From assembly GCA_002369195.1 (NCBI GenBank), contig DFEW01000001.1:1-15042 (forward strand): 15,042 nucleotides of DNA, written 5' to 3'. Both the position numbers and the translations under genes were made by a program. The notes under the pieces were generated by a model, which ran no database searches, was not told the origin of the DNA, and worked only from the letters and a program-made list of their open reading frames with translations. This DNA comes from Christensenella sp. UBA3792. Lineage in GTDB: Bacteria > Bacillota > Clostridia > Christensenellales > CAG-138. Position 1 is the stretch's first letter, and each line of letters begins with the position of its first letter. Shown here one piece after another: positions 1 to 13,478 of this stretch.

Positions 1-52
1 CATGTGAGACCATCGCTGTCGGCGACAGCCGACTGAGGGGTTGTCCTTCCTG

Positions 53-126
53 CGGGCTGCTGGGGTCGTCAGCCACTACATTCGTCTCTTTCGGCGGGCT
101 GCCGGAGATGTCAGCCCTTACAGGCG
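53..126. repeat. two diverged tandem units of about 32 bases
   Basis: Two copies, 53-84 and 95-126, start 42 bases apart and match at about 24 of 32 positions. Both begin CGGGCTGC and share a GTCAGCC core and a TACA near the end. Just before them, 15-29 is a perfect 6-base-pair hairpin (GCTGTC / GACAGC, loop GGC). The stretch lies outside any credible gene, between the window edge and the terminator at 150-193. It looks like intergenic repeat debris; its function is unknown. Confidence 0.5.
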
Positions 127-149
127 TATCATTGGGCGGGCACGCCGCC

Positions 150-193
150 AAAAAGAAAGAAGGTCCTCCGATGGGAGAACCTTCGTCTTTTTT
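150..193. terminator. bidirectional intrinsic terminator
   Basis: The stem GAAGGTCCTCC (159-169) pairs with GGAGAACCTTC (174-184) around the loop GATG, with one C/A mismatch. An A-rich run lies on the left (150-158) and a T run on the right (188-193), so it can terminate in both directions. On the minus strand it closes the leucine-rich-repeat gene, which stops at 206. Confidence 0.8.
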
Positions 194-205
194 GGGAATC
201 GCGGC

Positions 206-1357
206 TTACTCCGTCCAGTTATAGAGAATCTCGAACGGGTAGCCGTTGTTGATCATGTCGTCGATCGCGAGCGCCGCGTCGTCGTCGCCCTGTTCGAGCA
301 CGATCTTGCGAAGCTTCGCGCAGTCCTCCAGCTTATAGTAGTCGAGGAACAGGATCGGGCACTTGCCGAGGTCGAGCTTCTTCAGCGCGGGGAAGTTCTT
401 GAAATACGAGATGTCGCTGATGTTCGTGCGGTTGACGCGCAGGTTTTCCAGCTTCTTAAGTCCGGTCAGCGGCTTGACGCTCTTGAGCTTGCTGTTGCGT
501 CCGATGTGCAAGAATTTCAGCTTCGAAAGCGACGCCAGCGGCGAAACGTCCGTGATCTTCTTGAGATCGTACAGATAGAGCGTTTCGAGGTTCTTGAGCT
601 CGCCGATCGGCTCGAGGTCCTCGTCGGTCAGCGGGTTGTCGCCGAGGTTCAGGTACGTCAGCTTCTGCAGGTCCTCGAGCGCCGTCGTGTCGTCGATCTT
701 GTTGTGAACGAGGTTCAGCGTGCGCAGCTCGGTCAGATCGTCGACCCACGCGATGTTCTCGATCGCCTTGCCGCTGCCGGTGCCGCAGCTCGACAGCTGC
801 AGCTTTTTGAGCTTTCTGAGCCGGCCGAGCGGCGCGTAATCGTCCATGTAGCAATAATCGAGCACGAGCTCCTCCAGATCCGGACACAGCTCGATCAGGT
901 TCTGCACCTCTTCCTTTTTGATGTGCTTCGGCTTGCCGCTCTTTCCGTTGATGCCGAGACTCTTGCCGTTGATCTTCGTCGTACCCGTCTTGACCGTCTT
1001 TCCGCCGAACGTGAACGAGTCCGGCTTCGCGGTCGGCTTCGGCGTCGGCTTCTCGGTCGGCTTCTCCGTCGGCGCTTCGGTCGGCGCTTCGGTCGGTTCC
1101 GGCGTTACGGTCGGTTCGGGCAGCGCCGGATTGGGCGTAATGACGAGCACTTCCGGCTTTTCACTCGGCGCGATCGTCGGCTCCGGCGAGGGCGTCGCCT
1201 CCGCGATCGGCTGATCGACCGGCACGCAGCGGATGATGTCGAGGTGCAGCAGCACCAGGAAGGAGATGGCGGCCGTCATCGCGATGATCACGCCGCAAAG
1301 CACGATCACCAGCCAAAGCGGTACGCCGGCAAACGCGGTTTTCTTTTTGTTTTCCAT
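206..1357 (-). CDS. membrane-anchored leucine-rich-repeat protein
   Basis: This 383-residue protein has a short basic N-terminus, one membrane segment at about residues 11-39, a Pro/Thr/Glu/Lys stalk at about 55-115 (repeats such as PTEAPTEAPTEKPTEKP), and a C-terminal domain from about 150 to 370. That domain carries roughly eight leucine-rich repeats with LxxLxLxxN-type units, for example LTYLNLGDNPLTD. It is probably a signal-anchor protein with the repeats outside the cell, acting in protein binding or adhesion; no enzyme motif is seen. The start is set by AAGGAGG five bases before the ATG. It lies 30 bases after the stop of the upstream membrane-protein gene and ends in the terminator at 150-193, so the two probably form an operon. 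The partner and exact role are unknown. Confidence 0.88.
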   Translation of the reverse strand: MENKKKTAFAGVPLWLVIVLCGVIIAMTAAISFLVLLHLDIIRCVPVDQPIAEATPSPEPTIAPSEKPEVLVITPNPALPEPTVTPEPTEAPTEAPTEKPTEKPTPKPTAKPDSFTFGGKTVKTGTTKINGKSLGINGKSGKPKHIKKEEVQNLIELCPDLEELVLDYCYMDDYAPLGRLRKLKKLQLSSCGTGSGKAIENIAWVDDLTELRTLNLVHNKIDDTTALEDLQKLTYLNLGDNPLTDEDLEPIGELKNLETLYLYDLKKITDVSPLASLSKLKFLHIGRNSKLKSVKPLTGLKKLENLRVNRTNISDISYFKNFPALKKLDLGKCPILFLDYYKLEDCAKLRKIVLEQGDDDAALAIDDMINNGYPFEILYNWTE

Positions 1358-1387
1358 ACAATCCTCCTTGAATCGTTCCCCTCGGTT

Positions 1388-2146
1388 TCAGAACAGCAAC
1401 CGTATCAGCAGCACGCCCGCGGCAAGACTTGCCGCGTTCGCCGCAACCGTAAAGAGCAGCACGACCCACGTTTTGCGGGACGCGTACTTCCTGCGCCAGA
1501 AGAAAAACTCGATCAGCAGCACGATGGCTTCGAACACGGTCAGCGCGAACCAGTATCCGAAGCCGCTCAGCGTCGAGATCAGCAGCAGGACGATGTTCAT
1601 CGGAATGTTCGTGATCAGGTTCGCAAGGACGATGTAGCGCAGCGGCTTCATGCCAAAGCACAGCCCGACGAGCAGTTCGATGAGCACCGTCAGCGCGAAC
1701 GCCGCCGCGATCTCAAGGAGCAGAATGCCGACGAACAGCAGGATCGAGGCAAGGCCCGATTCTGCAAACGAACCGGTGCGGTCCGTCAGCGTGTTCGTCG
1801 CGCCGTCGTAGCGGTAAACGCCGTTGGGCGTGATCGGCAGCACGTTCGATTCCCGCACCGTGCCGTCCGGCGCCGTGACCTTCAAATACAGCTGCGTGTC
1901 GCCCTGCGAAAAATGAAAGTACTCGTCGGAAGGCACGCGGCTGACCTTGCGCTCGCCGTAGATCGCGTCCGGCTCGAATACCCCGTCCTCCCCCGCGAAC
2001 ATCGCGACGACGGATGTGCCGACCTCGATGCTGCGGCAGTCGATCTTTACGCCGAACGGATCCGGTGCAGGCGCGTTCGCGCTCGCAAACTGCGGTATAA
2101 GCAGCACGCACAATGCGAGCAGAAGCATGAAAATCCGTTTTTTCAT
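1388..2146 (-). CDS. signal-peptide-bearing multi-spanning membrane protein, unknown function
   Basis: I do not recognise the family. The 252-residue protein begins with a clear signal peptide (MKKRIFMLLLALC, cleavage probably after ASA near residue 23). An ectodomain of about 110 residues follows, with a beta-like segment (TQLYLKVTAPDGTVRESN), and then four or five hydrophobic segments to the C-terminus, one ending in the basic stretch FFFWRRKYASRK. The ATG at 2146 is preferred over one 12 codons upstream because GGGAGG lies about eight bases before it and the signal peptide starts cleanly there. It is first in a probable operon with the leucine-rich-repeat gene, behind the promoter at 2183-2211. 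The extracellular-domain-plus-membrane-bundle layout could fit a sensor or an envelope-assembly factor; that is a guess. Confidence 0.82.
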   Translation of the reverse strand: MKKRIFMLLLALCVLLIPQFASANAPAPDPFGVKIDCRSIEVGTSVVAMFAGEDGVFEPDAIYGERKVSRVPSDEYFHFSQGDTQLYLKVTAPDGTVRESNVLPITPNGVYRYDGATNTLTDRTGSFAESGLASILLFVGILLLEIAAAFALTVLIELLVGLCFGMKPLRYIVLANLITNIPMNIVLLLISTLSGFGYWFALTVFEAIVLLIEFFFWRRKYASRKTWVVLLFTVAANAASLAAGVLLIRLLF

Positions 2147-2182
2147 CGCGCGCCTCCCGATCAACGGTATATTTTCAAACAT

Positions 2183-2211
2183 AGTATATCATGTTCCGCC
2201 GCGCTTGTCCA
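2183..2211 (-). promoter_or_regulatory. housekeeping-type promoter for the 2146-206 operon
   Basis: Read on the minus strand, TGGACA (2211-2206) and TATACT (2188-2183) are separated by exactly 17 bases. The start codon at 2146 lies about 37 bases beyond the -10 box, leaving a short leader that contains GGGAGG. Confidence 0.65.
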
Positions 2212-2277
2212 CCGCAAACGGAACGAAAATATATCCTTGCTGTCCCAAAAAAGGACTTCCCCTTTGCGCCTCCTTCT

Positions 2278-2285
2278 GGTATACT
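2278..2285 (+). promoter_or_regulatory. extended -10 promoter for the small SOS-linked gene
   Basis: The TATACT at 2280-2285 is preceded by TG one base upstream (2277-2278), an extended -10. No good -35 is visible. The predicted transcription start, near 2292, falls at the left edge of the LexA-like operator, so a bound repressor would block initiation. Confidence 0.55.
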
Positions 2286-2294
2286 GTTTTTATT

Positions 2295-2308
2295 CGAACA
2301 TATGTTCG
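2295..2308. promoter_or_regulatory. LexA/SOS box (perfect 14-base palindrome)
   Basis: CGAACATATGTTCG is a perfect palindrome and fits the Gram-positive SOS-box consensus CGAAC-RNRY-GTTCG at every fixed position. It lies about ten bases after the extended -10 and 26 bases before the ATG at 2335, a position suited to LexA repression. It is the only match with correct half-site spacing that I found in the window. Confidence 0.85.
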
Positions 2309-2334
2309 TATTTCCGCATGAAAGGAGATTGGAT

Positions 2335-2721
2335 ATGGACTTGAATGACTGGAAGAAGCTTGCGGAACGGGAAGTGTCCCGCTATCGGGACAATCAGGCA
2401 TATGTGAGGGGCGTACTGGACGGCGGCGGGACGGGCGGCGAGCGGATGCAGCGGTGCGCGCGCTGGGTGCTCGCGGTCGATTACACGCGGGCGCATCTAA
2501 AGCGGGCGGACCCACAGAAGGCGGAGGTGTTTTCGAAGCTGTTCGGTCTGGACGCTCCTATAAAGAGCAGGAACGCGGCGCGAACGGCGAAGGCGGTGAG
2601 CATCGAGCTGCACATGTCGATCACGACGGTGTACCGCTGGAAGAGCGAGGCGCTCTCGCTCGTGCTGCTTGCGGCGGCGCAGACCGGCGCGCTGCGCCCC
2701 TATACGGTCGATCCGCATTGA
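2335..2721 (+). CDS. small putative helix-turn-helix regulator under SOS control
   Basis: This 128-residue basic protein has no membrane segment. Its C-terminal half (about residues 75-120) reads like a sigma-region-4 or helix-turn-helix fold: a helix around AARTAKAVSIELHMS, a turn, then ITTVYRWKSEALSLVLLAA. This resembles phage late-gene regulators of the ArpU/RinA type, but the match is from memory and weak. The start is fixed by AAAGGAGA seven bases before the ATG at 2335; a longer reading frame from 2191 would run back through the promoter and the SOS box. Being monocistronic and placed directly behind a LexA box, it is probably induced by DNA damage. It may be a prophage remnant or a domesticated regulator. 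No other phage gene is seen nearby. Confidence 0.75.
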   Translation: MDLNDWKKLAEREVSRYRDNQAYVRGVLDGGGTGGERMQRCARWVLAVDYTRAHLKRADPQKAEVFSKLFGLDAPIKSRNAARTAKAVSIELHMSITTVYRWKSEALSLVLLAAAQTGALRPYTVDPH

Positions 2722-2728
2722 TTCGCTT

Positions 2729-2759
2729 TGCCCTTCGTTTGCCTTTCAGACGGAGGGCA
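2729..2759 (+). terminator. probable terminator hairpin of the SOS-linked gene
   Basis: TGCCCTTCGTTTG and CAGACGGAGGGCA form a 13-pair stem with two G-T pairs and the loop CCTTT, starting eight bases after the stop at 2721. The following tract (TATTTGC) is poor in T, so termination may be partial. Confidence 0.5.
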
Positions 2760-2840
2760 TATTTGCATGCGCGGCGCAAACTTGGATGCAGTATGCAGCC
2801 GGTATTTCGTGTATTATACCATTATACATACCTTTTCCCG

Positions 2841-2870
2841 TGAATAATTGAACAATTTATGAATTATTCA
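2841..2870. repeat. AT-rich 9-base inverted repeat
   Basis: TGAATAATT (2841-2849) and AATTATTCA (2862-2870) are exact reverse complements around a 12-base spacer. The sequence is notably richer in AT than the rest of the window. It could be an operator for a dimeric regulator or an easily melted segment; no binding protein is known. Confidence 0.5.
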
Positions 2871-2916
2871 TTGAGTATTCAAGTTGCCTATACCGCATAT
2901 GCAGGTCGGATCAAAC

Positions 2917-2987
2917 GGTGGATAACCCCGAAAAATCCGATGATTCAAGCCCCGAATTGTGGATAACTCTGTGGACGATGTGGAAAT
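2917..2987 (+). promoter_or_regulatory. cluster of DnaA-box-like sites
   Basis: TGTGGATAA at 2958-2966 is a perfect DnaA box (reverse complement TTATCCACA). GGTGGATAA at 2917-2925 differs at one base. TGTGGACGA at 2970-2978 and TGTGGAAAT at 2979-2987 differ at two bases each. All four point the same way and lie just after the AT-rich inverted repeat. No dnaA, dnaN or rpmH is nearby, so an origin is not claimed. Confidence 0.4.
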
Positions 2988-3161
2988 GTATGCGATTATG
3001 CACCCGCATTTGCCGGAATGAATATTCACCTGCGCGGTACAAATCTGTCGAAAAGCCCCGAAGCGCCTGCACTTGCGAAGACGCCCGCTGCTGCGGTTCT
3101 ATGCATGAAGCGGAATTTGCCGTGAATACGTGCGCCGAATGCGCTTTTGATGCGTTGGTTC

Positions 3162-3190
3162 TTGCAAAACCGCTTCGAATCGGCTATACT
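3162..3190 (+). promoter_or_regulatory. promoter of the metallophosphoesterase gene
   Basis: TTGCAA (3162-3167) and TATACT (3185-3190) are 17 bases apart. The GTG start at 3221 lies 30 bases beyond the -10, with a ribosome site between, which also argues against a start at 2918. Confidence 0.7.
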
Positions 3191-3220
3191 GAACAACGAC
3201 AGTTTCGACGGGAGAACACG

Positions 3221-4276
3221 GTGAAGCGACTTCTTTTGATCCTCTTTATCATCCTTTTGACGGCATGCGCGGTACAACCGACCGGCACGCCTGCTCCCGC
3301 TTCCCCCGCGCCGACCGCCGTGCCGACCGAAGAACCGCCTTCCGTCGTGGAGGTGGCGGAACCGACCGCGGCGCCCGAGCCGACCGCCGCGCCGACCGAA
3401 GCGCCGACCGAAGCGCCGACCGCGACGCAGGAGCCGACGCCCGAGCCGCCGTTTTCGATGGTCTGGGTCAGCGACACGCAGACGATGGTCGCCTATCCGA
3501 GCATGTACGAGGGCTTTACCGCGATGTGCGACTGGATCGTCGAGAATGCCGAGGCGCGCAACTTCAAGCTTTACCTGCACTCCGGCGACATGGTCGACAA
3601 CGGTCTGAACCGCGGACAGTGGAGCCGCTTCTGTGAAGGCGTGCGCCCGATCGCCGAGAAGATGCCGCTGTTTGTAACCGCGGGCAACCACGATCGCGCC
3701 GCCAAGGGTCCGTCGTACTGGACCGAGCAGTTCTTCGTGACCGAGTTCCCGCCCGAACAGAGCTTTAACGACTGCAGCGCATCGTACATGATCCTCAACG
3801 AGGGCAGCACCTCGATCCTGTTTTTGAGCATCTGCTACGTGCGCGAGGTATACGACGCCGAGCTGGACTGGCTCAAGGCGGTTTGCGACGCACATCCCGA
3901 TCTGCCGGCGGTTCTGCTCGTGCACGGGTACCTGACCAAGGACGGCGGCATCGTGACGATGGCGCAGTACATGGAGAAAGTGCTTGTCTCGCAATGCCCG
4001 AACATCAAGCTGATCCTGTGCGGACACGCCCGCGGCATCGCGCGGCAGACCTTCGTCTATGACGACGACGGCGACGAGGTGCCCGACCGCACCGTCAACG
4101 TGCTGATGTACGACGTGCAGGAGGATCGCAAAAAGTACGGCTATCTGTGCCTTTTGACCTACGACCCCGCGACCAATTCGCTGTTCGTCGATTCCTACTC
4201 GCCGTTCCTCGACGATTACATCTACAACGACGACGATGTCGACACGGAGCGGTTCACGATCAAAAACGTATTTTAA
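3221..4276 (+). CDS. calcineurin-like metallophosphoesterase lipoprotein
   Basis: From a GTG start this is 351 residues. It has a lipoprotein signal with lipobox LTAC (Cys16), a Pro/Thr/Ala/Glu stalk to about residue 77, then a metallophosphoesterase domain. Visible motifs, in order: SDTQ (D85), GDMVDN (122-127), GNHD (155-158), VHGY (234-237) and GHARG (268-272). These match the dinuclear metal-binding set, but the usual DxH and GHxH have become DTQ and GHAR, so two metal-ligand histidines are replaced. Such proteins hydrolyse phosphomono- or diesters, often at the cell surface; the substrate here is unknown. The GTG was chosen for the GGGAGA upstream, the promoter at 3162-3190 and the signal peptide. 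It appears monocistronic and faces the inverted-repeat element. Confidence 0.9.
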   Translation: MKRLLLILFIILLTACAVQPTGTPAPASPAPTAVPTEEPPSVVEVAEPTAAPEPTAAPTEAPTEAPTATQEPTPEPPFSMVWVSDTQTMVAYPSMYEGFTAMCDWIVENAEARNFKLYLHSGDMVDNGLNRGQWSRFCEGVRPIAEKMPLFVTAGNHDRAAKGPSYWTEQFFVTEFPPEQSFNDCSASYMILNEGSTSILFLSICYVREVYDAELDWLKAVCDAHPDLPAVLLVHGYLTKDGGIVTMAQYMEKVLVSQCPNIKLILCGHARGIARQTFVYDDDGDEVPDRTVNVLMYDVQEDRKKYGYLCLLTYDPATNSLFVDSYSPFLDDYIYNDDDVDTERFTIKNVF

Positions 4277-4281
4277 GCCAT

Positions 4282-4444
4282 AAAAAGGGGCTGTTAAGAA
4301 AGTCTCGCATGTCATCCAAAGCTGCGAAGCGGTGAAGGATCTCAGAACGAAACCGTCTTGTCATGCAACACTGTTTCAAACTTGCGTTCAGAGATTCTTC
4401 GCCTGCGGCTCAGAATGACAGACTTTTCTTAACAGCCCCTTTTG
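4282..4444. mobile_element. MITE-like inverted-repeat element, about 160 bases
   Basis: The ends form near-perfect terminal inverted repeats: AAAAGGGGCTGTTAAGAAAG (then TCT) at 4283-4305 and its complement, with one extra base, at 4421-4444. The interior is also an imperfect inverted repeat: both arms contain a GTCAT core followed by a GAAG..ATCTC..GAACG pattern (left about 4311-4349, right about 4386-4420). It has no coding capacity and no clear target duplication. It fills the gap between two converging genes and touches the stop of the one at 4445, so its transcript could fold as a two-way terminator. From memory, short repeats with a GTCATTCTGAG core are dispersed in several bacterial genomes. 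Confidence 0.75.
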
Positions 4445-5188
4445 TTACTCCATCACAAGGATCAGCCGCCCGCGCGATTCGATCAGCGTGCCGATACGCT
4501 GGGTGAACGTCAGCCCGAACGTGCCGGTTTCGAGGTCCGCGTCGCGCTCGGCGCGGAAGAGCACGTATTCGCCGTCCTGCTCGGACAGTGCCAGAAACCC
4601 GTTCTGCAGCTGAAAATCGGACAGCGCCGAGGTGTGCGTGTCGAAGTCGAACCAGCCGACCTTCGCGCATTGATCCTCGTTCGCGCCGAAGTGGTACGTG
4701 TACAGCAGGTCGGGCACGTCGTCCCAGTTCAGATCGGTCAGCAGCACGTCGAGCACGCCCTTGCCGTCCGTGCCCTCGCCGAGGCGGTAGTATTCGCCGT
4801 CCTCGCACACATACGAGCAGCCGAGGTCGATGCTGCGAATCACCGTAAACCCGTTCGCGCCTTCCGGCGTCAGATCGAGCCAGCGTTCCGGATCGGACAG
4901 CCACGGACCGTAGTCCTCCAGATGCGCGTCGTTGAGGTCGAGCTTGTCGAGCGGCGGCGCGACCGCGATGTGCTTTTCCGCTTCGTAGAGGCGGTTGGGC
5001 AGCGGCGTCGGCTCCGGCGTGGCGGTCGGCTCCGGCGTGCTGCCGTTCGTGCGCGGACCGCTTGCGCAGCGCTGGATGCGGTAGGTGCCGTAGATCGCCC
5101 CCGCGAGCAGCAGCAGCGCCGCCAGGATGCAGACGACGACGAACGCGCCCTTTTTTATGACTTTTTTCCAGTTGGACTGTTGTTCCAT
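4445..5188 (-). CDS. single-pass membrane-anchored protein, unknown function
   Basis: This 247-residue protein has a basic N-terminus, a membrane segment at about residues 14-36, a short Thr/Pro/Glu stalk (STPEPTATPEPTPLP) and an external domain of about 180 residues rich in Asp, Leu and aromatics. The segment VLLTDLNWDDVPDLLYTYHFG resembles one FG-GAP/VCBS-type calcium-loop repeat, which suggests part of a beta-propeller, but I cannot name the family. The ATG at 5188 overlaps the TGA of the upstream CAT-like gene by one base, with GGAGG seven bases before it, so the two are probably translationally coupled. A TTG one codon earlier is less likely. It is last in the three-gene operon and ends directly at the inverted-repeat element. 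Confidence 0.82.
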   Translation of the reverse strand: MEQQSNWKKVIKKGAFVVVCILAALLLLAGAIYGTYRIQRCASGPRTNGSTPEPTATPEPTPLPNRLYEAEKHIAVAPPLDKLDLNDAHLEDYGPWLSDPERWLDLTPEGANGFTVIRSIDLGCSYVCEDGEYYRLGEGTDGKGVLDVLLTDLNWDDVPDLLYTYHFGANEDQCAKVGWFDFDTHTSALSDFQLQNGFLALSEQDGEYVLFRAERDADLETGTFGLTFTQRIGTLIESRGRLILVME

Positions 5189-5832
5189 CAATATTCCTCC
5201 AATGCGCAGATTGCCCCGTTCAACGCGTCGTACAGGCGTTTCAGGTGCACGCCGTCGATCAGGCGGTGATTGACCTGCACGGTGTACGAAAGCGTCTTTC
5301 TGCCCTTCTCATCGTCGCTGAACATGCCCCACAGGATGCGCGGGGTGCTGTCCGTGTTGTCGAGCGGGAATTCCTGGCTGATGTGCGTGTAATCGATCCA
5401 CGGCAGCGAGGAGATGTACACATCGTGTCCCGCCTCGTCCGCCTCCGCGGTCGGGATCGGGGACGGGTTGTCCGCCTCCGCCGCCCTGCAGCGCGCCGCA
5501 AAATCGGTCGGGGACTCGCCGTCCTTCCATTCGACGCCGCAGATGCCGAACAGCTCGTCGTCCCATTGGTAGGTATAGGACGGATTGCGGTGATCGAGCA
5601 GGTACACGTCCGCGCCGCGCAGTTCATACCGGAACGCCTCGACGCCGTTGACGGCCTTCATCGTCGCCCACATCAGGACCGCGTAGAACGAAACGCCGTG
5701 CGCCTTCGCCCATTTGACCGCGTCCGTCACGTCGACTCGCCACGTCACGCTGTAGAACGGCACTTCGAGGCGGGAAAACAGCAGGTCATGCGCATTTCTG
5801 CGCCATTCGCTTCGATCGATCTTCTGTTCCAT
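5188..5832 (-). CDS. chloramphenicol acetyltransferase-fold protein
   Basis: At 214 residues this is the usual length of type A chloramphenicol acetyltransferases. Family landmarks are present: a start resembling the family N-terminus, SFYAVLMWATMKAVN near residues 48-62, PWIDYTHIS near 144-152, and the active-site segment NHRLIDGVH with His189, Asp193 and Gly194 in the HxxxDG pattern. In characterised enzymes the catalytic His is preceded by another His; here it is Asn188. The fold is trimeric and uses acetyl-CoA. Many genomic homologues have no proven drug resistance, so the acceptor is open. The start lies four bases after the stop of the NlpC-like gene with no strong ribosome site, which suggests translational coupling. 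It sits between two envelope genes rather than among resistance genes. Confidence 0.88.
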   Translation of the reverse strand: MEQKIDRSEWRRNAHDLLFSRLEVPFYSVTWRVDVTDAVKWAKAHGVSFYAVLMWATMKAVNGVEAFRYELRGADVYLLDHRNPSYTYQWDDELFGICGVEWKDGESPTDFAARCRAAEADNPSPIPTAEADEAGHDVYISSLPWIDYTHISQEFPLDNTDSTPRILWGMFSDDEKGRKTLSYTVQVNHRLIDGVHLKRLYDALNGAICALEEY

Positions 5833-5836
5833 CGGT

Positions 5837-6532
5837 TCAGAACACGCGCCGTGCGAACACGAACGCTTCCTTCCAATAGTTTGAATTGCTCTTGGTCGTG
5901 ATCACCTTGCCCTCGCCCGAGGACGGATAGATCATCAACCCATCGCCGAGGTAGATCGTCACGCAGTTGACCGCGTCGTTGCCCGGCGTCCGATAGAAGC
6001 ACAGGTCGCCGACCTCCAGATCGTCCATCGATTCGACCATCTGCCAGTCGGTCATCTCCGAATAGCCCTTGCTCGTCTTGTGCCGCACCTTGACGCCTGC
6101 ACGGTTCAGACAGTAGTACACGAATCCGCCCGGGTCGAAGCCGGTCTCCTTTTCCGTGCCGCCGCGGTGATACGGCGCATCGAGCAGCGCAAGCGCCTCG
6201 TCGCAGAACGCCTCCGCCTTCGTGCGGTCCGGCTCGGGAGTCGGCGTCGGTTCCGCGGTGGGTTCGGGCGTCGGTTCCTCGGTGGGCTCCGGCGTCGGCG
6301 CCTCGGTCGGCGCTGCGGTCGGTTCGGGTGTAGGCGCCTCGGTGGGCGCGGGTGTGACTACGGTCTCGATGCTCGCCGTCTCGGCGGTCGGCGTCGGGGT
6401 CGCGCGTTCGATTTCTCCTACGATCTGTATCTTATCCTGCTCCGGATTGGAATTGATGATCTGCGGCGACGTGCAGCCGACCGCAAGAACGAGCGCCAAT
6501 CCGAGCGCAATGACGGTTTGTTTCCGGTTCAT
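5837..6532 (-). CDS. NlpC/P60-fold lipoprotein lacking the catalytic residues
   Basis: This 231-residue protein has a lipoprotein signal (lipobox AVGC, Cys20), a long Pro/Thr/Glu/Ala stalk at about 45-102 and a C-terminal NlpC/P60-like domain from 105. The domain keeps the frame of the family: GFDPGGFVYYCLNRAG, LEVGDLCFY and NCVTIYLGDGLMIY. However, the catalytic Cys of the FDCSGF motif is Pro134 (codon CCG), the first His (as in HVGIY) is Cys190, and the second His is Tyr202. Cell-wall endopeptidase activity is therefore not expected, and a binding or regulatory role is more likely. The ATG at 6532 is fixed by GGAGGT eight bases upstream and by the signal peptide; an earlier Met at 6661 lies inside the thiT terminator. 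It is first in the operon with the CAT-like and anchored proteins. Confidence 0.87.
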   Translation of the reverse strand: MNRKQTVIALGLALVLAVGCTSPQIINSNPEQDKIQIVGEIERATPTPTAETASIETVVTPAPTEAPTPEPTAAPTEAPTPEPTEEPTPEPTAEPTPTPEPDRTKAEAFCDEALALLDAPYHRGGTEKETGFDPGGFVYYCLNRAGVKVRHKTSKGYSEMTDWQMVESMDDLEVGDLCFYRTPGNDAVNCVTIYLGDGLMIYPSSGEGKVITTKSNSNYWKEAFVFARRVF

Positions 6533-6565
6533 GCAGGTACACCTCCGTTCCTGTAATGTACCATG

Positions 6566-6571
6566 ATTATA
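6566..6571 (-). promoter_or_regulatory. -10 box of the 6532-4445 operon
   Basis: TATAAT on the minus strand at 6571-6566 lies 33 bases before the ATG at 6532. The -35 is weak; the best candidate, TTTACG, lies about 20 bases upstream. An activator or alternative -35 may be needed. Confidence 0.5.
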
Positions 6572-6644
6572 AAAACAAGATGTCACCGAACCGTAAACGG
6601 AGTGTGAACAATTCGTGAGTTGTGCCCCAAAACACAAAAATGTC

Positions 6645-6672
6645 ACAAAAAAACGGGGCACAGATGCCCCGT
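6645..6672 (-). terminator. intrinsic terminator of thiT
   Basis: On the minus strand ACGGGGCA and TGCCCCGT form a perfect 8-pair stem with the loop TCTG, followed by a run of seven T. It begins 21 bases after the thiT stop codon. Confidence 0.9.
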
Positions 6673-6692
6673 AAAACCGCCTGGTTTGTCCG

Positions 6693-7244
6693 TCAGAACC
6701 GGTCGAGCAGCTCCACCGGCTTGATCAGAATCGCGCACACGATCACCGCGATGATCGTGTTCGGCAGCATGTACGCGCCGTTGTAAACGATCGAGAACAG
6801 GATCGCGCCGGGCGTCGCCACGGACAGGCCGAAAAAGTCCGCCGTCGGTTCGGCATACTCGGCATAGATCGTCACGCCGCTGGCAAAGTGCACGACAAAG
6901 CGCGCGATGCAGCCGATCAGCGCGGCAAGGGGCAGCATGCCCTTCTTCTTGCGAAGCAGTCCCGCAAAGCCGACGAACGCGTACGCGACCGAGTAGTCGA
7001 GCAGCATGCTCTCCCAGTTGACCGCCGTGCCGCCCGCCAGGAAGAACTTGAGCGTGCCGAACGCGAGACCGGCGAGCAGTCCCTGCCATACGCCCCAGCG
7101 GTACGCGTAAACGATCAGCGGAACCATGACGAAGTCGATCGAGCCGCCGAGCGCCGCGACCGGGATTTTCAGATAGCTGAGGGCGAGCGCAAGCGCGATG
7201 GCGATGCCGCCTTCCGCCAACATACGGGTAGAATTCTTTTTCAT
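6693..7244 (-). CDS. thiT: ThiT, thiamine-specific S component of an ECF transporter
   Basis: This 183-residue hydrophobic protein has about six membrane segments, the size of ThiT (YuaJ). Family-like segments are visible: GSIDFVMVPLIVYAYRWG, FLAGG..WESMLLDYSVAYAFVGFAG, GCIARFVVHFASGVTIYAEY and a C-terminal YNGAYMLPNTIIA. ThiT binds thiamine with high affinity and works with the shared ECF energising module (EcfA, EcfA', EcfT), which is not encoded here. The assignment is reinforced by the TPP riboswitch directly upstream. The start is set by AGGAGG eight bases before the ATG. It is a single-gene unit between its own promoter at 7386-7414 and the terminator at 6645-6672. Confidence 0.95.
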   Translation of the reverse strand: MKKNSTRMLAEGGIAIALALALSYLKIPVAALGGSIDFVMVPLIVYAYRWGVWQGLLAGLAFGTLKFFLAGGTAVNWESMLLDYSVAYAFVGFAGLLRKKKGMLPLAALIGCIARFVVHFASGVTIYAEYAEPTADFFGLSVATPGAILFSIVYNGAYMLPNTIIAVIVCAILIKPVELLDRF

Positions 7245-7260
7245 GTGTTTTCCTCCTTAC

Positions 7261-7288
7261 AAAAAATGCCGCCCCGCCGGGACAGCAT
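7261..7288 (-). terminator. thiT: regulatory terminator of the TPP riboswitch
   Basis: On the minus strand ATGCTGTCCC (7288-7279) pairs with GGGGCGGCAT (7275-7266) over ten pairs, two of them G-T, with the loop GGC and a run of T ending at 7261. It lies after the aptamer and just before the ribosome site, as expected for an expression platform that stops transcription when thiamine pyrophosphate is bound. Confidence 0.85.
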
Positions 7289-7304
7289 CCAAAGAGCTTA
7301 TGAA

Positions 7305-7376
7305 TACGCTTCCTACGATGGCATGACCCAACAGGTTCCAAGGGTGCTTCTCAGCCGAAGTGTTCGGCGCCCCTGC
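7305..7376 (-). promoter_or_regulatory. TPP (THI-box) riboswitch aptamer
   Basis: Read on the minus strand, the conserved THI elements occur in the right order: GGGGCGCC at the 5' side, CTGAGA (7354-7349), ACCCTT (7345-7340), GAACCTG (7338-7332), a bulged GGGTCATGCC arm and the closing CGTAGGAAGCG. The sequence between GAACCTG and the 3' closing stem is compact, as in bacterial examples. Binding of thiamine pyrophosphate should favour the terminator at 7261-7288 and shut off thiT. Confidence 0.95.
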
Positions 7377-7385
7377 GTCGCGTTT

Positions 7386-7414
7386 ATTGTAGCAAAAGAC
7401 GCGCCGTTCGTCAA
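7386..7414 (-). promoter_or_regulatory. promoter of the thiT riboswitch transcript
   Basis: TTGACG (7414-7409) and TACAAT (7391-7386) on the minus strand are separated by 17 bases. Transcription should start near 7379, a few bases before the aptamer. Confidence 0.85.
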
Positions 7415-7480
7415 GCGGCAAGTTTTTTTGCGTGCTGCAACGCCCCCGCGGTGCGTGTCAGCCCCCTCATCGGCGCCTGC

Positions 7481-7506
7481 GGAGCTTCTCCTCAAGGAGG
7501 AGCTCC
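7481..7506. repeat. 26-base palindromic hairpin
   Basis: GGAGCTTCTCCT and AGGAGGAGCTCC form a nearly perfect stem (one T-G pair) around CA. It has no T tract on either side, so it is not a classical terminator. It lies between the signal-peptidase terminator and the thiT promoter, in about 120 bases with no other assigned element, and may be a dispersed intergenic repeat. Confidence 0.5.
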
Positions 7507-7540
7507 GAAATGCGCGTGCCGAATGCCTTGCGCCAAAACC

Positions 7541-7565
7541 AAAAAAGTTCTCCCTTTCGGAGAAC
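7541..7565 (-). terminator. intrinsic terminator of the signal-peptidase operon
   Basis: On the minus strand GTTCTCC (7565-7559) and GGAGAAC (7553-7547) form a 7-pair stem with the loop GAAAG, followed by six T. It begins 15 bases after the stop codon at 7580 and closes the four-gene unit that starts at 9829. Confidence 0.9.
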
Positions 7566-7579
7566 CGTTCGGACCGCTG

Positions 7580-8125
7580 TTACGGATCGCGGGTGAAGAT
7601 CGTGAAACTGCGCAGGCGCACGCGCACGACGCCGAGGATCGATTCGACGTCAAGGCAGCCGATGCCGCGGTTGCGGCTGTCCTCGCCGTAGTTGCGGTCG
7701 TCCGAGAGCACGAACACCGTTCCCTCCGGCACCCGCGTGCGGGAGATGTCGAGCGGCGCGGACGGCGCATAGCGGTGCTCGTCGAGCCCGTACCGCCCGT
7801 CGATGATCAGGATGCCGTCCTTCGCCTCGACCGTCTCGCCCGAAAGCGCGACGATGCGCTTGATGAGCAGGTTCCCTTCGCCGTCGCGGAACGCGACCAT
7901 ATCGCCGCGCTGCAGCTCGCTGAAATGCTTATCCAGCCGGTCGTAAAAGACGGTATCGCCCTTTTCGAGCGTCGGCGACATCGACTCGTCCGCGACGTAC
8001 ACGGGCGAGAACCAGCCGAACAGGAGCAGCAGCACGAGTGCAAGACCGATCGCCCCCGCGAAGATCCAGCGGAGGATGTTTTGCGTCTGATGTTCCTTTT
8101 GAAAACGAACCGAGCGGGTTTCCAT
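7580..8125 (-). CDS. signal peptidase I, second copy
   Basis: This 181-residue membrane-bound serine protease of family S26 would remove signal peptides from exported proteins. It has one N-terminal membrane segment (about 18-38), the catalytic Ser48 in ESMSPTL and Lys89 in LIKRIVALSG. The conserved GDNRxxSxDSR box reads SDDRNYGEDSRNRG: the Gly-Asp-Asn-Arg core is altered to Ser-Asp-Asp-Arg and the internal Ser to Gly, while the two catalytic residues remain. It starts six bases after the stop of the first signal peptidase with no clear ribosome site, so it is probably coupled to it. It may prefer a different set of precursors. Confidence 0.93.
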   Translation of the reverse strand: METRSVRFQKEHQTQNILRWIFAGAIGLALVLLLLFGWFSPVYVADESMSPTLEKGDTVFYDRLDKHFSELQRGDMVAFRDGEGNLLIKRIVALSGETVEAKDGILIIDGRYGLDEHRYAPSAPLDISRTRVPEGTVFVLSDDRNYGEDSRNRGIGCLDVESILGVVRVRLRSFTIFTRDP

Positions 8126-8131
8126 AGGCGG

Positions 8132-8740
8132 TTACGGCACGCGCACGCGGTCGAACGGATAGATCACGCTGCGCACCTTGCCGAGCACGCGGCAGAGCGG
8201 GATCGGTCCGACGGCGGAATTGCGCGAATCGATGCTGACGGCGCGGTTGTCGCCGAGCACGAACACGCAGCCCTCCGGCACGACCTGCCGTTCGAGCGTC
8301 TGATAGCCGATGCGGTTCTCGTTGACGTACGGTTCGGATAGCGGCTTGCCGTTGACGTAGACGCGGCCGCCGATCGATTCGATCGTATCGCCGCCGACCG
8401 CCGTGACGCGCTTGACGCGCGAGTTGTACGACTTGCCGGTCTGCGTGTAGTATTCTTCCGGATAATAGCAGATCACGATGTCGCCGACCTCGGGCGGGTC
8501 CTTGATATAGGCGAGCCGGTCGACGAACATGATCTCGTTCTCCCCGAGCGTGTCGAGCATCGACGCGCCGTCCACGCGCACCGGATCGACCGCCACGGCG
8601 CGGATCGAGAACACGATCAGCATGACGAGCAGCAGGTGCATCATGAAATCGAACACGCGCCACGGCATGCCGCCTTCCATGCTTTCGTTTCGTTTTTCCG
8701 CCTGCCGTCTCAGCTTGGCGATCGGTTGAATGATGTTCAT
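8132..8740 (-). CDS. lepB: signal peptidase I, first copy
   Basis: This 202-residue S26 protease has one membrane segment (about 30-50), the catalytic Ser60 in GASMLDTLG, Lys110 in RVKRVTAVGGD and the conserved GDNRAVSIDSRNSAVG box (163-178), all intact. Ser-Leu is unusual after the nucleophile, since SMxPTL is common and this reads SMLDTL. The ATG overlaps the TGA of the DUF951 gene (ATGA), so translation is probably coupled. It is the more canonical of the two tandem copies and likely the general signal peptidase for the lipid-free exported proteins in this neighbourhood. Confidence 0.95.
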   Translation of the reverse strand: MNIIQPIAKLRRQAEKRNESMEGGMPWRVFDFMMHLLLVMLIVFSIRAVAVDPVRVDGASMLDTLGENEIMFVDRLAYIKDPPEVGDIVICYYPEEYYTQTGKSYNSRVKRVTAVGGDTIESIGGRVYVNGKPLSEPYVNENRIGYQTLERQVVPEGCVFVLGDNRAVSIDSRNSAVGPIPLCRVLGKVRSVIYPFDRVRVP

Positions 8741-8934
8741 GCTTCGGTCTCTTTCGTCAGAATTTGTTTAGCGGATTTCATAAAGTCGAGCCGGTCGAGC
8801 ATCACGACGCGCCCGCAGCCGAGACAGCGGATCTTGACGTCCGCGCCGACGCGGGTGATCGTCCACGTATCCGCGCCGCACGCATGCGGCTTTTTCATGC
8901 GGACCGTGTCGCCTAAATGGAATTGCCCGATCAT
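8737..8934 (-). CDS. DUF951 small cysteine-containing protein
   Basis: This 65-residue protein matches the short DUF951 family common in Firmicutes: it starts FHLGDTVRMKKPHACG, then DTWTITRVGADVKIRCLGCGRVVMLDR. Cys19 (in HACG), Cys37 and Cys40 (CLGC) could bind a metal, and the rest is strand-rich, which would suit a small nucleic-acid- or protein-binding fold. The function is not established for the family. It lies one base after the hydrolase stop, with AAGGAA before its ATG, and overlaps lepB by four bases, so it belongs to the same transcript. Confidence 0.9.
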   Translation of the reverse strand: MIGQFHLGDTVRMKKPHACGADTWTITRVGADVKIRCLGCGRVVMLDRLDFMKSAKQILTKETEA

Positions 8935-8935
8935 A

Positions 8936-9829
8936 TTACGTTCCTTCCGGTTCGCCGGCGTAGCGGATGTAGCGGTCGGCCGCCTCAGCGATCTGTCCCG
9001 CCTTTTCCTCGTGCATCCAATGTCCGGTGTTGCGAATGCTGTGGTAGACGCTCATCGGAAGCTGCTCGCGCAGTTCGAACAGCCGGTCCATCGGCTGCAG
9101 CTTGTCCGAATCGCCCCAGATGATGAAAAACTCGCGCTCCCTTTGCCGGATCTGCTCGATCGCGTAGTCCTCGTCGAAGTTGCGGATCGCGTACATGATC
9201 GCCTGCCGCGCCGCGAAGCTGTCGCATGTCTTGTAGTACTGCGTCACGACGTCGCCGGTGCAGACCGTGCCGTCGTAGTAGAACAGCGGCAGATACGCCT
9301 CGAAGTCCTTGCGGCTGTACAGCTCGCGCCACAGAAAGCCGAGCGGACGCTCCAGACGCCGGATCTTCTTGGGCATCTTTTCGGTGATGCCGCCGGGCGT
9401 TAAGGCGATGATCTTCATGAACCGGTCGGGGTACTTGGCCGCCGCGAGCATCAGGTAGAGCGCGCCCATCGTCACGCCGAGCGCATGCGCCCGCTTGAGT
9501 TCGAGCGCGTCGAGGCATTTTACGAGGATGTCCGCCATCTCGTCCATCGAGAAGTTCAGCGAATACGGATGGTCCGAATACCCGAACCCCGGCAGGTCGA
9601 TCGCGATCACGCAGTAGTTTTCCGCGAGGATCGGCATCAGCTTGCGCCAGGTGTAGATCGACTGCCCGACCGAATGCACCAAAAGAAGCGGCTCGCCTCT
9701 GCCCATCGTCAGATAGTGCACGCGGCACGGCTCGGGCTTCTGGTTCGCGCCCGAAAAGCCCGGCAGCTCGATGGTGAAGAAGTCGCCGATCAGGTCGGAG
9801 TTGACGATCGGTTTGTTTTTCTGTTTCAT
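8936..9829 (-). CDS. alpha/beta-hydrolase-fold protein with Thr at the nucleophile position
   Basis: This 297-residue cytoplasmic protein fits the alpha/beta hydrolase family: LLLVHSVGQS (oxyanion loop, 48-57), IDLPGFGYSDHP (77-88), nucleophile elbow LGVTMGA (117-123), WGDSDKLQP with Asp242, and TGHWMHEE with His270. The usual GxSxG nucleophile Ser is Thr120 (codon ACG), so normal esterase or lipase activity is doubtful, although Asp and His remain. The closest recognisable style is the haloalkane dehalogenase/epoxide hydrolase/meta-cleavage hydrolase group; the substrate is unknown. The start at 9829 is chosen for GAGGTG about six bases upstream and the -10 box beyond it; an upstream Met at 10003 would run back through the promoter. 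It is first in the operon with DUF951 and two signal peptidases. Confidence 0.9.
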   Translation of the reverse strand: MKQKNKPIVNSDLIGDFFTIELPGFSGANQKPEPCRVHYLTMGRGEPLLLVHSVGQSIYTWRKLMPILAENYCVIAIDLPGFGYSDHPYSLNFSMDEMADILVKCLDALELKRAHALGVTMGALYLMLAAAKYPDRFMKIIALTPGGITEKMPKKIRRLERPLGFLWRELYSRKDFEAYLPLFYYDGTVCTGDVVTQYYKTCDSFAARQAIMYAIRNFDEDYAIEQIRQREREFFIIWGDSDKLQPMDRLFELREQLPMSVYHSIRNTGHWMHEEKAGQIAEAADRYIRYAGEPEGT

Positions 9830-9853
9830 AAAAGCACCTCGTATATCATTTTG

Positions 9854-9882
9854 ATTATAGCGCGGCGCACCGGCGGATGCAA
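9854..9882 (-). promoter_or_regulatory. promoter of the hydrolase-DUF951-lepB operon
   Basis: TTGCAT (9882-9877) and TATAAT (9859-9854) on the minus strand are separated by exactly 17 bases. The ATG at 9829 follows 24 bases after the -10, with a GAGGTG ribosome site between. Confidence 0.85.
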
Positions 9883-9918
9883 GAAAAGGGCAAAAACTTT
9901 TCTTTTCGTACATATTTC

Positions 9919-9951
9919 TGTGACAAATCCGCGCCTTCTTTCTGTTATCAT
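9919..9951 (+). promoter_or_regulatory. possible promoter of the sigma-factor operon
   Basis: An extended -10 (TG-T-TATCAT, 9943-9951) is preceded by GTGACA at 9920-9925, but the spacing is about 20 bases. The leader to the TTG at 10057 would be about 100 bases and contains the overlapping palindromes GAACATGTTC (10018-10027) and GTTCGAAC (10024-10031), which could be an operator. The sigma factor may also use its own promoter in this leader, which I could not identify. Confidence 0.35.
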
Positions 9952-10056
9952 GTGTACGAACGCAAAATTTTTTGCAGCGGCCGTCACTTTTTTCAAAGTT
10001 CATACGCTTTCTTTAGTGAACATGTTCGAACACAGCGAAAAAAGGAGGTTTTTGTT

Positions 10057-10599
10057 TTGAAGCATTGGATCACCCGATTGCGAAACGACCCGGAACGCGC
10101 CGTTCATGCGCTGATGGACGCGCACGGCGGACTGGTCTATTATACCGTTCGCCGGGTCCTCGCCGGATATCCGGAGGACGATATCGAGGAATGCGTGTCC
10201 GACACGTTCTTCTACGTGTACCGCAATCGGGACCGTCTCGACCTCGAGGACGATGCGATCAAGGCCTATCTCGGCAAAACGGCGCTGCACCGCGCGATCG
10301 ATCACAAGAGAAAGGTCGCGCGCATCCCGACGCCGACCGAGGACGCCCTGTTTGACGCGGACGCTTCGGCGCAAAGCGCGGAAGAGCTTGCGGTTTCGGA
10401 ACTGACGCGCGGCGAGCTGATCGAATCGATCCTGGCGCTCGGCGATCCGGACGCGACGATCCTGATCGCAAAGTATTTTATCGGCATGAAGGGCAAGGAG
10501 ATCGCCGCATTGCTGCACATGAAGGAAAACACCGTCGTCTCCCGCGCTTCGCGGGCGCTGAAACAACTGCGCAATACCCTGAAAGGAGCAGAATCATGA
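10057..10599 (+). CDS. ECF-like RNA polymerase sigma factor
   Basis: This 180-residue protein has sigma region 2 at about residues 18-85 (VYYTVRRVLAGYPEDDIEECVSD, then FFYVYRNRDRL and a Lys/Arg-rich end) and region 4 at about 115-175, with a helix-turn-helix reading GMKGKEIAALLHMKENTV. There is no region 1 or 3, so it is an alternative, extracytoplasmic-function type. The start is a TTG at 10057: AGGAGG at 10043-10048 lies eight bases before it, no in-frame ATG is near, and the protein begins where family members usually do. Its stop overlaps the ATG of the next gene (ATGA), the classical layout of a sigma with its cognate anti-sigma. It would direct polymerase to a small regulon, likely envelope-related. 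Confidence 0.92.
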   Translation: MKHWITRLRNDPERAVHALMDAHGGLVYYTVRRVLAGYPEDDIEECVSDTFFYVYRNRDRLDLEDDAIKAYLGKTALHRAIDHKRKVARIPTPTEDALFDADASAQSAEELAVSELTRGELIESILALGDPDATILIAKYFIGMKGKEIAALLHMKENTVVSRASRALKQLRNTLKGAES

Positions 10600-12107
10600 C
10601 AAACGATTTATCCAAGGTCCTGTCGAATGCGACCGATGCGGAGGCATCCGCATTGATGGACCGCTTCGATCCCGAAGCGCATCTCGATGAAGATACAAAA
10701 GCCCGCCTGCACGCGCGGATTTCGCAAAGCATCCGGGAGACCAAAGCAAGCGCAAAGCGCAAACTGCGCTTCCCGTGGAAAGCGGTGCTTGGCATCGCAG
10801 CGGCGTGCGCCGCCGTGTACCTGACGCTCGGCTTTACCGTGCCCGGCGTTGCCGACACGCTGTATCGTGTGTTCCATCCCGACTATCGAACCGAAGCGTA
10901 CTTCTCCACCCCGCCCGAGCAGCGGCAGGATCCGGTAAAGGACCTCGAAGCGGCGGTCGGCGATTTTCACGCACAGGACGTGGAAAGCAAGGTCGAGCTG
11001 CTCGGCGAATACACGATGCTCACGCGCTACGACGCCGAATACAACGACATGGCGAACAGCACGCCGACGCTGCGCGAAACCTACGGATTTTCGCCGTACC
11101 GGCAGGCGGATTACGTATACCTGCGCGACATGCGCGCCTCCGTGCGCGAGCTGTACTACGACGGAGAACGTCTGTTCGTCACCGCGTTCGTCGCGACGGA
11201 ACACCCCGAATGGCTTCTCGCGGATGACGAAGCGACCCCGCCGAATCTGGAGCTTGCCGTCTTCGATTTTCAGCTGACGGTCAACGGCGAAGCGTTCCCG
11301 ATACAGTGGAACGTCTCCTCCGGCGGCGGCAGCGGCATCACCGTGCACGACGGCGAAAAGGGGCTGTGGGTCTCGACCGAGATCGATCTGACGGAGCCCC
11401 TGCCGGACGGCCGCTGCGAACTTTTGATGCTCTACTACGTCTACGACTGCGACGTCGACGACATGGGCGCGATCGGCAACGTCGGACGTCTGATCCACCG
11501 CATCTCGTTCGTATCCGACGCCGGCAACCGCCGCGCGGACGCGTGCACGGAAGCGACGTTTTGCGGGTCTGCCCCGATGACGTTCACCTTCGTCGATCCG
11601 GTCACGCTCGAGGAGAAAACCATCGAGAACCGCACCGTCAGCTTCGACGGTCTCAAAATGCGCTTTACCGCGCAGTATCTGGCGAGCGGGCTGAAGATCA
11701 CCGCACAGCTCGTTGCCGTCCCGCAGGACTGGACGGAGGCGGAGAAGGAAGCGTTCCTGTACGGCTTTTTCGAGCCGCTGACGTTTGAGGCGCAAAGCGG
11801 CGAAGATCGCATCGTCGTGAAGAACTATGAGATCTCGCGCAAGGACGGCAACTGGACGTTCGAGCTGCCGGTTTTCCCGTCCGAATACGAAACGGTCGGC
11901 GCGATCACGCTGATCCCGCGGATCCGGTATCTTTCGGAATTCGACGTCTATGTGCAGGACAGCGAAACGGAAGGACATTACGAGCACGTCGTGCTGAAGC
12001 CCGACACCGGCGCGATCCCGCGCGCGGAGCATTTCGGTCAAAGCACGGTCCTCGAAACCCCGCTTTCCGAAGTACGCATTGAGATCCCGCTTCCGAAGGG
12101 CGAATAA
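10596..12107 (+). CDS. membrane-anchored putative anti-sigma factor
   Basis: This 503-residue protein has a cytoplasmic N-terminus of about 60 residues (acidic then basic, SAKRKLRFPW), a single membrane segment at about 62-83 and a large extracellular part of about 415 residues rich in beta-like segments, Asp and Thr. This is the layout of clostridial anti-sigma factors that hold an ECF sigma factor at the membrane. I see no HxxxCxxC zinc motif, so it would be a non-zinc type; a DUF4179-like ectodomain is possible from memory only. The four-base ATGA overlap with the sigma gene supports partnership. The role is inferred from gene order and topology rather than from a recognised binding motif. 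Confidence 0.8.
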   Translation: MTNDLSKVLSNATDAEASALMDRFDPEAHLDEDTKARLHARISQSIRETKASAKRKLRFPWKAVLGIAAACAAVYLTLGFTVPGVADTLYRVFHPDYRTEAYFSTPPEQRQDPVKDLEAAVGDFHAQDVESKVELLGEYTMLTRYDAEYNDMANSTPTLRETYGFSPYRQADYVYLRDMRASVRELYYDGERLFVTAFVATEHPEWLLADDEATPPNLELAVFDFQLTVNGEAFPIQWNVSSGGGSGITVHDGEKGLWVSTEIDLTEPLPDGRCELLMLYYVYDCDVDDMGAIGNVGRLIHRISFVSDAGNRRADACTEATFCGSAPMTFTFVDPVTLEEKTIENRTVSFDGLKMRFTAQYLASGLKITAQLVAVPQDWTEAEKEAFLYGFFEPLTFEAQSGEDRIVVKNYEISRKDGNWTFELPVFPSEYETVGAITLIPRIRYLSEFDVYVQDSETEGHYEHVVLKPDTGAIPRAEHFGQSTVLETPLSEVRIEIPLPKGE

Positions 12108-12120
12108 GAAGGAACGCACG

Positions 12121-13431
12121 ATGAAAAAGCTGATCGTTCTGCTCTGTCTTTTACTGCTTCTTGCCTGCGTGCCGACGCCCGAAACGGAAGCGGTGGTCTA
12201 TCGCGGCGACGATGCGACGGCAAAGCCCGCCGGCGCCGAACGCGCCGACCTTTCGGCGATCCCCGAACACCTGAATCTGACAGCGCAGCCGCAAAACGGC
12301 GTGACCCTGCAATTCGATGCGGACGTGGAGCTCGACCGGAACGGCACGTTCCCGGTTTTAGAGGTGCGCGCGCTCGATACCGCCGCCGATCCCGCGTTCT
12401 GCGAACGCCTCCTCTCGCTGCTCTGTCCCGACGGCAAGCTCTATGAGCGCTGGCAGCCGACCAAAGCGGAGCTCAAGGAGGAGCTGCTTGCCGCAACCGC
12501 CTATGACGGACGCTGGGGCTCGATCTTTGAGATGGAGGACATGCCGGAGGTGCTGAAGTACCTCGAGGACGCCTATCAAGCCGCACCGGACGAACCGCAG
12601 CACACGGCGGTCGATCCCGGGAACGGATTTCTTCCGAAGCACAGGTATTATATCGTACGACCGGACGGCGGCACGGCATTGCTGACCTTCGGTTCCGAAA
12701 AGAACGGCGGCACATGGATCGACGACTCCCGCATGAGTTACTGCACCGAGGATTTCATTCAGGAGGGCGATCCGCCGCTCGACGAACCGCCAATCTCCGA
12801 ACAAGCAGCGATCGCCGCGGCGGACGCGCTGCTGCAATCGCTCGGCGTCGAATGCACGTCGCTGCTGTATACCGAACGCGGTTTCGGCTGGCGGCTGTAC
12901 GAGCGCACGGAAAGCGTTTGGATGTGCACCTATGTGCGCAGGATCGGCACGACTGACTCGAACGATCAGCACCGGGTGTTCGGATACCAGTATCCGCGCG
13001 ACGCCGCAACCGCGCTCGGCGCGCCGTGGGAGGGCGTGGAGTACATCCGCGTCACGGTCGGAAGCAAAGGCGTATGCGAGGTCTGGTGGTCGGGGCTTTG
13101 CGAAACGTGCGTAGTCACGGAGCCCGATGCGGCGCTCTGCGATTTCGATCAAATCCTTGCGCGCTTTCAGGAGCAGCTCGGCTACCGGTACGCGATGCCC
13201 GAGGGCGGCGTGACCGTTTCGATCGAAAAGCTGAAGCTGACCTACGGCGTCGTCAGCGAAAAGGACCGGCGCGGGTACGGGCTCTATATCCCGATGTGGG
13301 AACTATGTTACCGGACGGACACGGACGATCAGGCAGGCTTTTGGAATATCTATCTGTCCGCGCTCGACGGCTCGACCGTGGAACCGCGCATCACGACCGA
13401 CAGCCTGCTTCGCGAATCGCAGAACCCGTAA
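12121..13431 (+). CDS. large lipoprotein, third gene of the sigma operon
   Basis: I do not recognise the family with certainty. The 436-residue protein has a lipoprotein signal with lipobox LLAC (Cys16), then a long mostly soluble domain containing about nine cysteines and many Trp/Tyr. The opening pattern (VTLQFDADVEL, then PVLEVRAL, then LLCPDGKLYERW) reminds me of the clostridial DUF6034 lipoproteins, but that needs a profile search. No catalytic motif stands out. The ATG at 12121 is chosen for GAAGGAAC upstream and the lipid signal directly after it; a Met 14 codons earlier lies inside the anti-sigma gene. The short 13-base gap and the common terminator at 13436-13465 place it in the sigma operon, so it may be a target or ligand-sensing partner. 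Confidence 0.85.
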   Translation: MKKLIVLLCLLLLLACVPTPETEAVVYRGDDATAKPAGAERADLSAIPEHLNLTAQPQNGVTLQFDADVELDRNGTFPVLEVRALDTAADPAFCERLLSLLCPDGKLYERWQPTKAELKEELLAATAYDGRWGSIFEMEDMPEVLKYLEDAYQAAPDEPQHTAVDPGNGFLPKHRYYIVRPDGGTALLTFGSEKNGGTWIDDSRMSYCTEDFIQEGDPPLDEPPISEQAAIAAADALLQSLGVECTSLLYTERGFGWRLYERTESVWMCTYVRRIGTTDSNDQHRVFGYQYPRDAATALGAPWEGVEYIRVTVGSKGVCEVWWSGLCETCVVTEPDAALCDFDQILARFQEQLGYRYAMPEGGVTVSIEKLKLTYGVVSEKDRRGYGLYIPMWELCYRTDTDDQAGFWNIYLSALDGSTVEPRITTDSLLRESQNP

Positions 13432-13435
13432 ACGC

Positions 13436-13465: not shown

Positions 13466-13478
13466 CATCCCGAAGAGT

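Follow-up and report, generated by a model that had tools for sequence, protein, structure and literature searches.

A 231-residue lipoprotein encoded in a 15,042-nucleotide stretch of Christensenella sp. UBA3792 (GCA_002369195.1, contig DFEW01000001.1, positions 1-15,042; hereafter the window) retains the NlpC/P60 fold and has lost all three catalytic residues, with Pro134, Cys190 and Tyr202 (numbered throughout as in this protein) standing in their places. The same replacements recur across a lipoprotein family, here called dead NlpC, whose peptidase activity is predicted from sequence to be absent, and the gene lies in a conserved three-gene operon with a CAT-fold protein (CAT) and an anchored protein (ANC). 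There are precedents for dead hydrolases with a sensing or regulatory role in the wall, namely the LytM domains and, for NlpC, the mycobacterial RipD; described here are a clostridial family of dead-NlpC lipoproteins, its fixed replacement set and its conserved operon. Its members are candidates for a role in sensing peptides or controlling hydrolases among Clostridia of the gut and rumen.

Replacement of the catalytic residues

By searching with residues 103-231, 108 proteins were obtained, one of which (P0002, 98% identical) is probably the window's own copy, and an alignment of 109 rows (the query, P0002 and 107 others) was compared with 36 active relatives. The Pfam profile NLPC_P60 (PF00877) matched residues 120-229 at E 3.5e-15 and 56.3 bits, above the curated cut-off of 23, and together with the fold match of the structure model this places the domain in the NlpC/P60 superfamily. 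A signal peptide with a lipobox Cys at residue 20, present in 109/109 rows, predicts lipidation, and a loose lipobox pattern was matched by 107 of the 109; the stalk that links lipobox to domain has a median length of 95 amino acids, 69% of them Pro, Thr, Glu, Ala or Ser (n = 109). The fold signature, lipid anchor and long Pro-Thr-Glu stalk claimed by the original prediction, which was made from the letters of the window, are thereby all borne out at the sequence level. Stalks of this type are frequent across the window's genome, and the window encodes two further proteins with Pro/Thr/Glu stretches, a leucine-rich-repeat protein (206-1357) and a calcineurin-like phosphoesterase (2918-4276).

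Pro134 and Tyr202 were invariant in the 109 rows, as were Asn189, Pro203 and Ser204, and Cys190 was found in 108 (one Ile), whereas the 134, 190 and 202 columns held Cys (36/36), His (36/36) and His or Asp (18 each) in the active relatives. All three residues of an active C40 peptidase are accordingly missing, i.e. the Cys of the DCSG motif (Pro, or Thr/Ser in outlying members), the catalytic His and the polar residue at the third position, which is His or, among local relatives, Asp. The other conserved Cys of the family, Cys141, also occurs in 30/36 active relatives. A shifted but intact triad was looked for and not found, since the 36 active relatives put their Cys and His exactly on 134 and 190; homologues using the same residues for catalysis did not emerge either, and no member of the dead family carries the standard triad among the 109 rows, the profile-search proteins and the family genomes. 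The predicted exchange of Cys-His-His for Pro-Cys-Tyr and its conservation among homologues therefore stand.

A profile search matched 229 proteins; among the 120 listed, 111 were new and comprised 27 with Pro-Cys-Tyr, six with Thr-Cys-Tyr, one each with Thr-Val-Tyr and Ser-Cys-Tyr, seven fragments without the first position, showing Cys-Tyr at the other two, 64 with Cys-His-His, three with Cys-His-Asp, one His-His fragment and one Asn-Phe-Tyr (P0252). From a scan of genome contigs, the best 80 of 183 relative-encoding stretches included 22 dead-family loci (L087-L108), 20 with Pro, Cys and Tyr and two cut but agreeing where visible; the 22 came from uncultured Clostridia, Clostridiales, Eubacteriales or Bacillota, with goat, cattle, sheep, water buffalo or reindeer named for eight of them. 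The remaining 58 loci (L109-L166) all had the nucleophile Cys, with His at position 190 in 54 and an apparent shift of the pairwise alignment in four.

In a family-level survey of 103 genomes, which are incomplete draft assemblies, dead NlpC was found in 36 by reading the active sites. The Pro-Cys-Tyr set was present in 34 of these, one of which (G069) has the gene split by contig ends, with Pro-Cys and Cys-Tyr visible on separate pieces. The other two, from one genus, have Thr as nucleophile residue (DTSG), one of them also Val190, and DPSG is mostly kept in one whole genus; graded forms therefore exist. Tyr202 was present in all family sequences showing that column and Cys190 in nearly all, with the nucleophile position varying among Pro, Thr and Ser. 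Because the same substitutions recur in 109 proteins and in 34/36 genomes, the loss of the catalytic residues is real, and neither chance nor gene decay. A pseudogene, sequencing error or misalignment could be imagined in draft assemblies, but the frames are open and free of internal stops in all family matches listed and the gene order is conserved, leaving this explanation a negligible chance. The label 'C40 family peptidase' carried by some dead-family proteins is probably wrong as to activity.

Across 129 positions, only 134, 135, 190 and 203 were conserved in both the dead (109 rows) and the active (36) set and yet different, and 24 were conserved and common to both, i.e. at the sequence level the change is confined to the active site. 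A tree computed without the catalytic columns split 23 dead from 36 active sequences by a single branch (97/94), albeit from few columns and with a midpoint root. The median ratio of nonsynonymous to synonymous substitution (dN/dS) was 0.36 for the dead NlpC domain (392/528 pairs with dS <1.5), 0.29 for CAT (348/496) and 0.52 for ANC (436/528).

The triad seems to have been lost at least twice, as judged from tree position. P0252 and a relative from genome G718 (46% identical; loci L237 and L267) are lipoprotein-like with Ser/Thr-rich stalks and carry Asn-Phe-Tyr where the triad would be; in a quick tree this pair stood apart from the window's family, the starred branches forcing two changes. 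By tblastn, no CAT or ANC relatives were found in the 12.5 kb of L267. The G718 gene (L267:5808-6467) comes from another clostridial family, and its same-strand flanks resemble, as read from sequence, the germination protein YpeB and a D-Ala-D-Ala carboxypeptidase.

A conserved operon with CAT and ANC

In the window, 4 nt separate the NlpC stop from the CAT start, and 1 nt is shared by the end of CAT and the start of ANC, a spacing from which co-transcription of the three genes is predicted. NlpC, CAT and ANC were contiguous on one strand in 33 of the 36 dead-NlpC genomes (among them, ANC is cut by a contig end in G066 and CAT lies in two matched pieces in G069), and in G010 and G102 the CAT-ANC pair sits on a different contig from dead NlpC. 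The three-gene operon was found in four genera of the family, in agreement with the coupled operon originally proposed from the window. Since inheritance alone would yield much of this co-occurrence within one family, it is not independent evidence. ANC was detected at E <1e-50 in 40/103 genomes, including all 36 with dead NlpC; in the other 63 genomes, absence of dead NlpC was called by score and the active site was read for some best matches, including L268-L271 (Cys-His-His in 4/4). An order-wide search of 396 genomes gave nine with matches of at least 178 bits, all from this family, followed by a next best of 141 bits, and the 21 loci L176-L196 of this search all had Cys.

CAT belongs to the PF00302 fold by score and by its HxxxDG motif, both of which it has in common with CatA-type chloramphenicol acetyltransferases; at 63.7 bits versus an equivalog cut-off of 270 (NF000491), identity as CatA itself was rejected. 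His189, Asp193, Gly194 and Ser141 were invariant in 32 aligned sequences, and CAT is therefore probably an active enzyme. ANC gave no Pfam match at E 1. Its model (mean confidence, pLDDT, of 90.5) has a single helix at residues 8-43 with strands after it, and comparisons returned only weak propeller-type matches. At L059:4274-5230, ANC has a Cys-rich, zinc-ribbon-like N-terminal extension ahead of the helix (best Pfam match 22.1 bits, below cut-off), and a tandem pair of ANC-like genes follows CAT at L232 (G010) and L081 (G011). Two genomes without dead NlpC have a DUF3006-like stretch, one upstream of and adjoining ANC (L229:5052-5261; 41.0 bits, above cut-off) and one upstream of CAT, sharing an open frame with it (L228:4874-5791, start chosen by script; 21.5 bits, below cut-off).

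Possible functions of the dead domain

We favour, at a probability of about 0.5, a lipid-anchored domain that binds stem peptides without cutting them and acts as a membrane-tethered sensor or decoy. The flexible stalk would hold the domain off the membrane at its outer face, where the domain, having kept the fold and part of a gamma-D-Glu recognition site, may bind peptidoglycan stem peptides, leave them uncut and perhaps compete with the cell's active NlpC hydrolases. It would be made beside a cytoplasmic acyltransferase-like enzyme of the CAT fold and the single-pass ANC, which could relay a signal or form a complex with it. The originally suggested binding, scaffold or inhibitor role fits what is predicted here, and in these uncultured Clostridia, many from the ruminant gut, dead NlpC more likely holds or senses wall peptides than cuts them.

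YkfC is reported to bind gamma-D-Glu via Tyr226, Trp228, Asp237, Ser239 and Ser257 (PMC2954226). When these positions were placed by motif and by alignment with 7cfl, a sequence-level mapping, the equivalents of Tyr226, Asp237 and Ser257 (121, 133 and 154) were each 109/109 in the dead family, i.e. three of five positions in the predicted pocket were invariant and two were changed. Compared with YkfC, the family also lacks the catalytic triad and the SH3b domains. The pocket is, as mapped, in part retained and in part rebuilt.

Several observations weigh against the favoured reading. The Ser239 position is Gly in 105/109, the Trp228 position is Arg in 83/109 (among the active relatives, too, Trp occurs in only 3/36) and the Arg255 position is His in 93/109 versus Arg in 31/36 active relatives, and therefore the ligand may differ. 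Moreover, four genomes (G062, G065, G067 and G068) keep ANC without dead NlpC, their best NlpC matches (L039, L042, L041 and L040, respectively) being canonical; CAT adjoins ANC in G065 and G068, not in G062 and G067, and dead NlpC is thus dispensable for CAT and ANC. In G038, dead NlpC adjoins ANC and no CAT was found in between.

RipD (Rv1566c) of Mycobacterium tuberculosis is described in the cited reports as a non-catalytic NlpC/P60 protein that binds peptidoglycan without cutting (PMC12067865, PMC6628586), with the domain N-terminal and pentapeptide repeats C-terminal, whereas the window's protein has lipobox and stalk first, the domain C-terminal and Pro-Cys-Tyr as replacements; identity with the RipD family (NF033743) was rejected at 30.1 bits versus a cut-off of 215. 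Active clostridial autolysin domains of the fold (Acd24020, 7cfl; LytE) have the catalytic Cys and His that the window's protein lacks.

By analogy with degenerate LytM factors, the dead domain might instead activate or block an active NlpC hydrolase by protein contact, with no need for peptidoglycan, which we hold possible but unlikely. Inactive LytM domains are reported to control autolysins (PMC10336132), and EnvC and DipM likewise illustrate how a dead hydrolase domain may regulate live ones, though their fold is unrelated to NlpC. Suitable targets may exist: of eight PF00877 loci in the window's genome, including the window's, at least four others have Cys and His (L001-L004, third residue His or Asp), Cys is seen in L006 and L007, which align in part, and L008 could not be aligned to the profile. 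In G057, the dead gene is closely preceded on its own strand by a canonical Cys-His-His domain (L053), but in only this one of 36 genomes was an active NlpC seen as its direct neighbour, and contact alone would not require invariant substrate-pocket residues. Four more genomes (G060, G063, G071 and G077) have a long-frame NlpC match on the contig of the dead gene, at a distance of about 12-15 kb.

We regard as doubtful that Cys190 and Tyr202, together with Asn189 and Pro203, form a new catalytic, redox or covalent centre. Constraint appears stronger on Cys190 and Tyr202 than on the drifting nucleophile position and leaves room for a new role, but one genome has Val, and one protein Ile, at position 190, and no known enzyme with a Cys-Tyr pair in the NlpC/P60 fold was found. 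Equally speculative is a muropeptide-sensing or redox/covalent centre at these residues, coupled via ANC to the cytoplasmic acyltransferase; if true, it would make a three-part cell-wall sensing system, of which kind no description was found. A neutral remnant, namely a spacer or scaffold for other outer-face proteins with an empty pocket, appears improbable as well: it would suit the loss of all catalytic residues, the long stalk and the many stalked surface proteins of the genome, but not the invariant pocket and active-site residues or a dN/dS below 1.

Feature positions and neighbouring genes

Table 1. Positions of the dead NlpC gene, its parts and its operon in the window
Feature	Position	Strand	Evidence
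Dead NlpC/P60 lipoprotein, 231 aa, open reading frame (ORF)	5837..6532	-	ORF; PF00877 56.3 bits; 109-member family
Signal peptide with lipobox Cys20, residues 1-20	6473..6532	-	Cys20 in 109/109
Pro/Thr/Glu/Ala stalk, residues 21-102	6227..6472	-	sequence; model low-confidence, mostly unstructured
NlpC/P60 domain, residues 103-231	5840..6226	-	
Pro134 codon, nucleophile (Cys) position	6131..6133	-	Pro 109/109 vs Cys 36/36 active
Cys190 codon, first His position	5963..5965	-	Cys 108/109 vs His 36/36 active
Tyr202 codon, third catalytic position	5927..5929	-	Tyr 109/109 vs His 18 / Asp 18 active
CAT-fold protein, catalytic motif kept (His189, Asp193, Gly194, Ser141)	5188..5832	-	PF00302 60.1 bits, cut-off 23.5
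ANC, membrane protein: one long hydrophobic helix at the N-terminus, short Pro/Thr stalk, beta-rich outer domain	4445..5188	-	model; 103-sequence alignment
Terminator-like hairpin and T run between thiT and operon	6653..6672	-	consensus match; 6 such sites in 3.3 kb vs 3.1 expected

The neighbouring thiT (6693-7244) has a thiamine pyrophosphate (TPP) riboswitch of its own at 7293-7384. This gene is near-identical in L051 (97%) though the NlpC domain there is 79% identical, and at the same position it is very distant (26-36%) in L050, L059, L060 and L068, with a TPP riboswitch accompanying it in all five loci, a pattern of in-place gene replacement or recent transfer. Further along the window, two neighbouring signal peptidase genes (Peptidase_S26, 105.7 and 126 bits) occupy 7580-8740.
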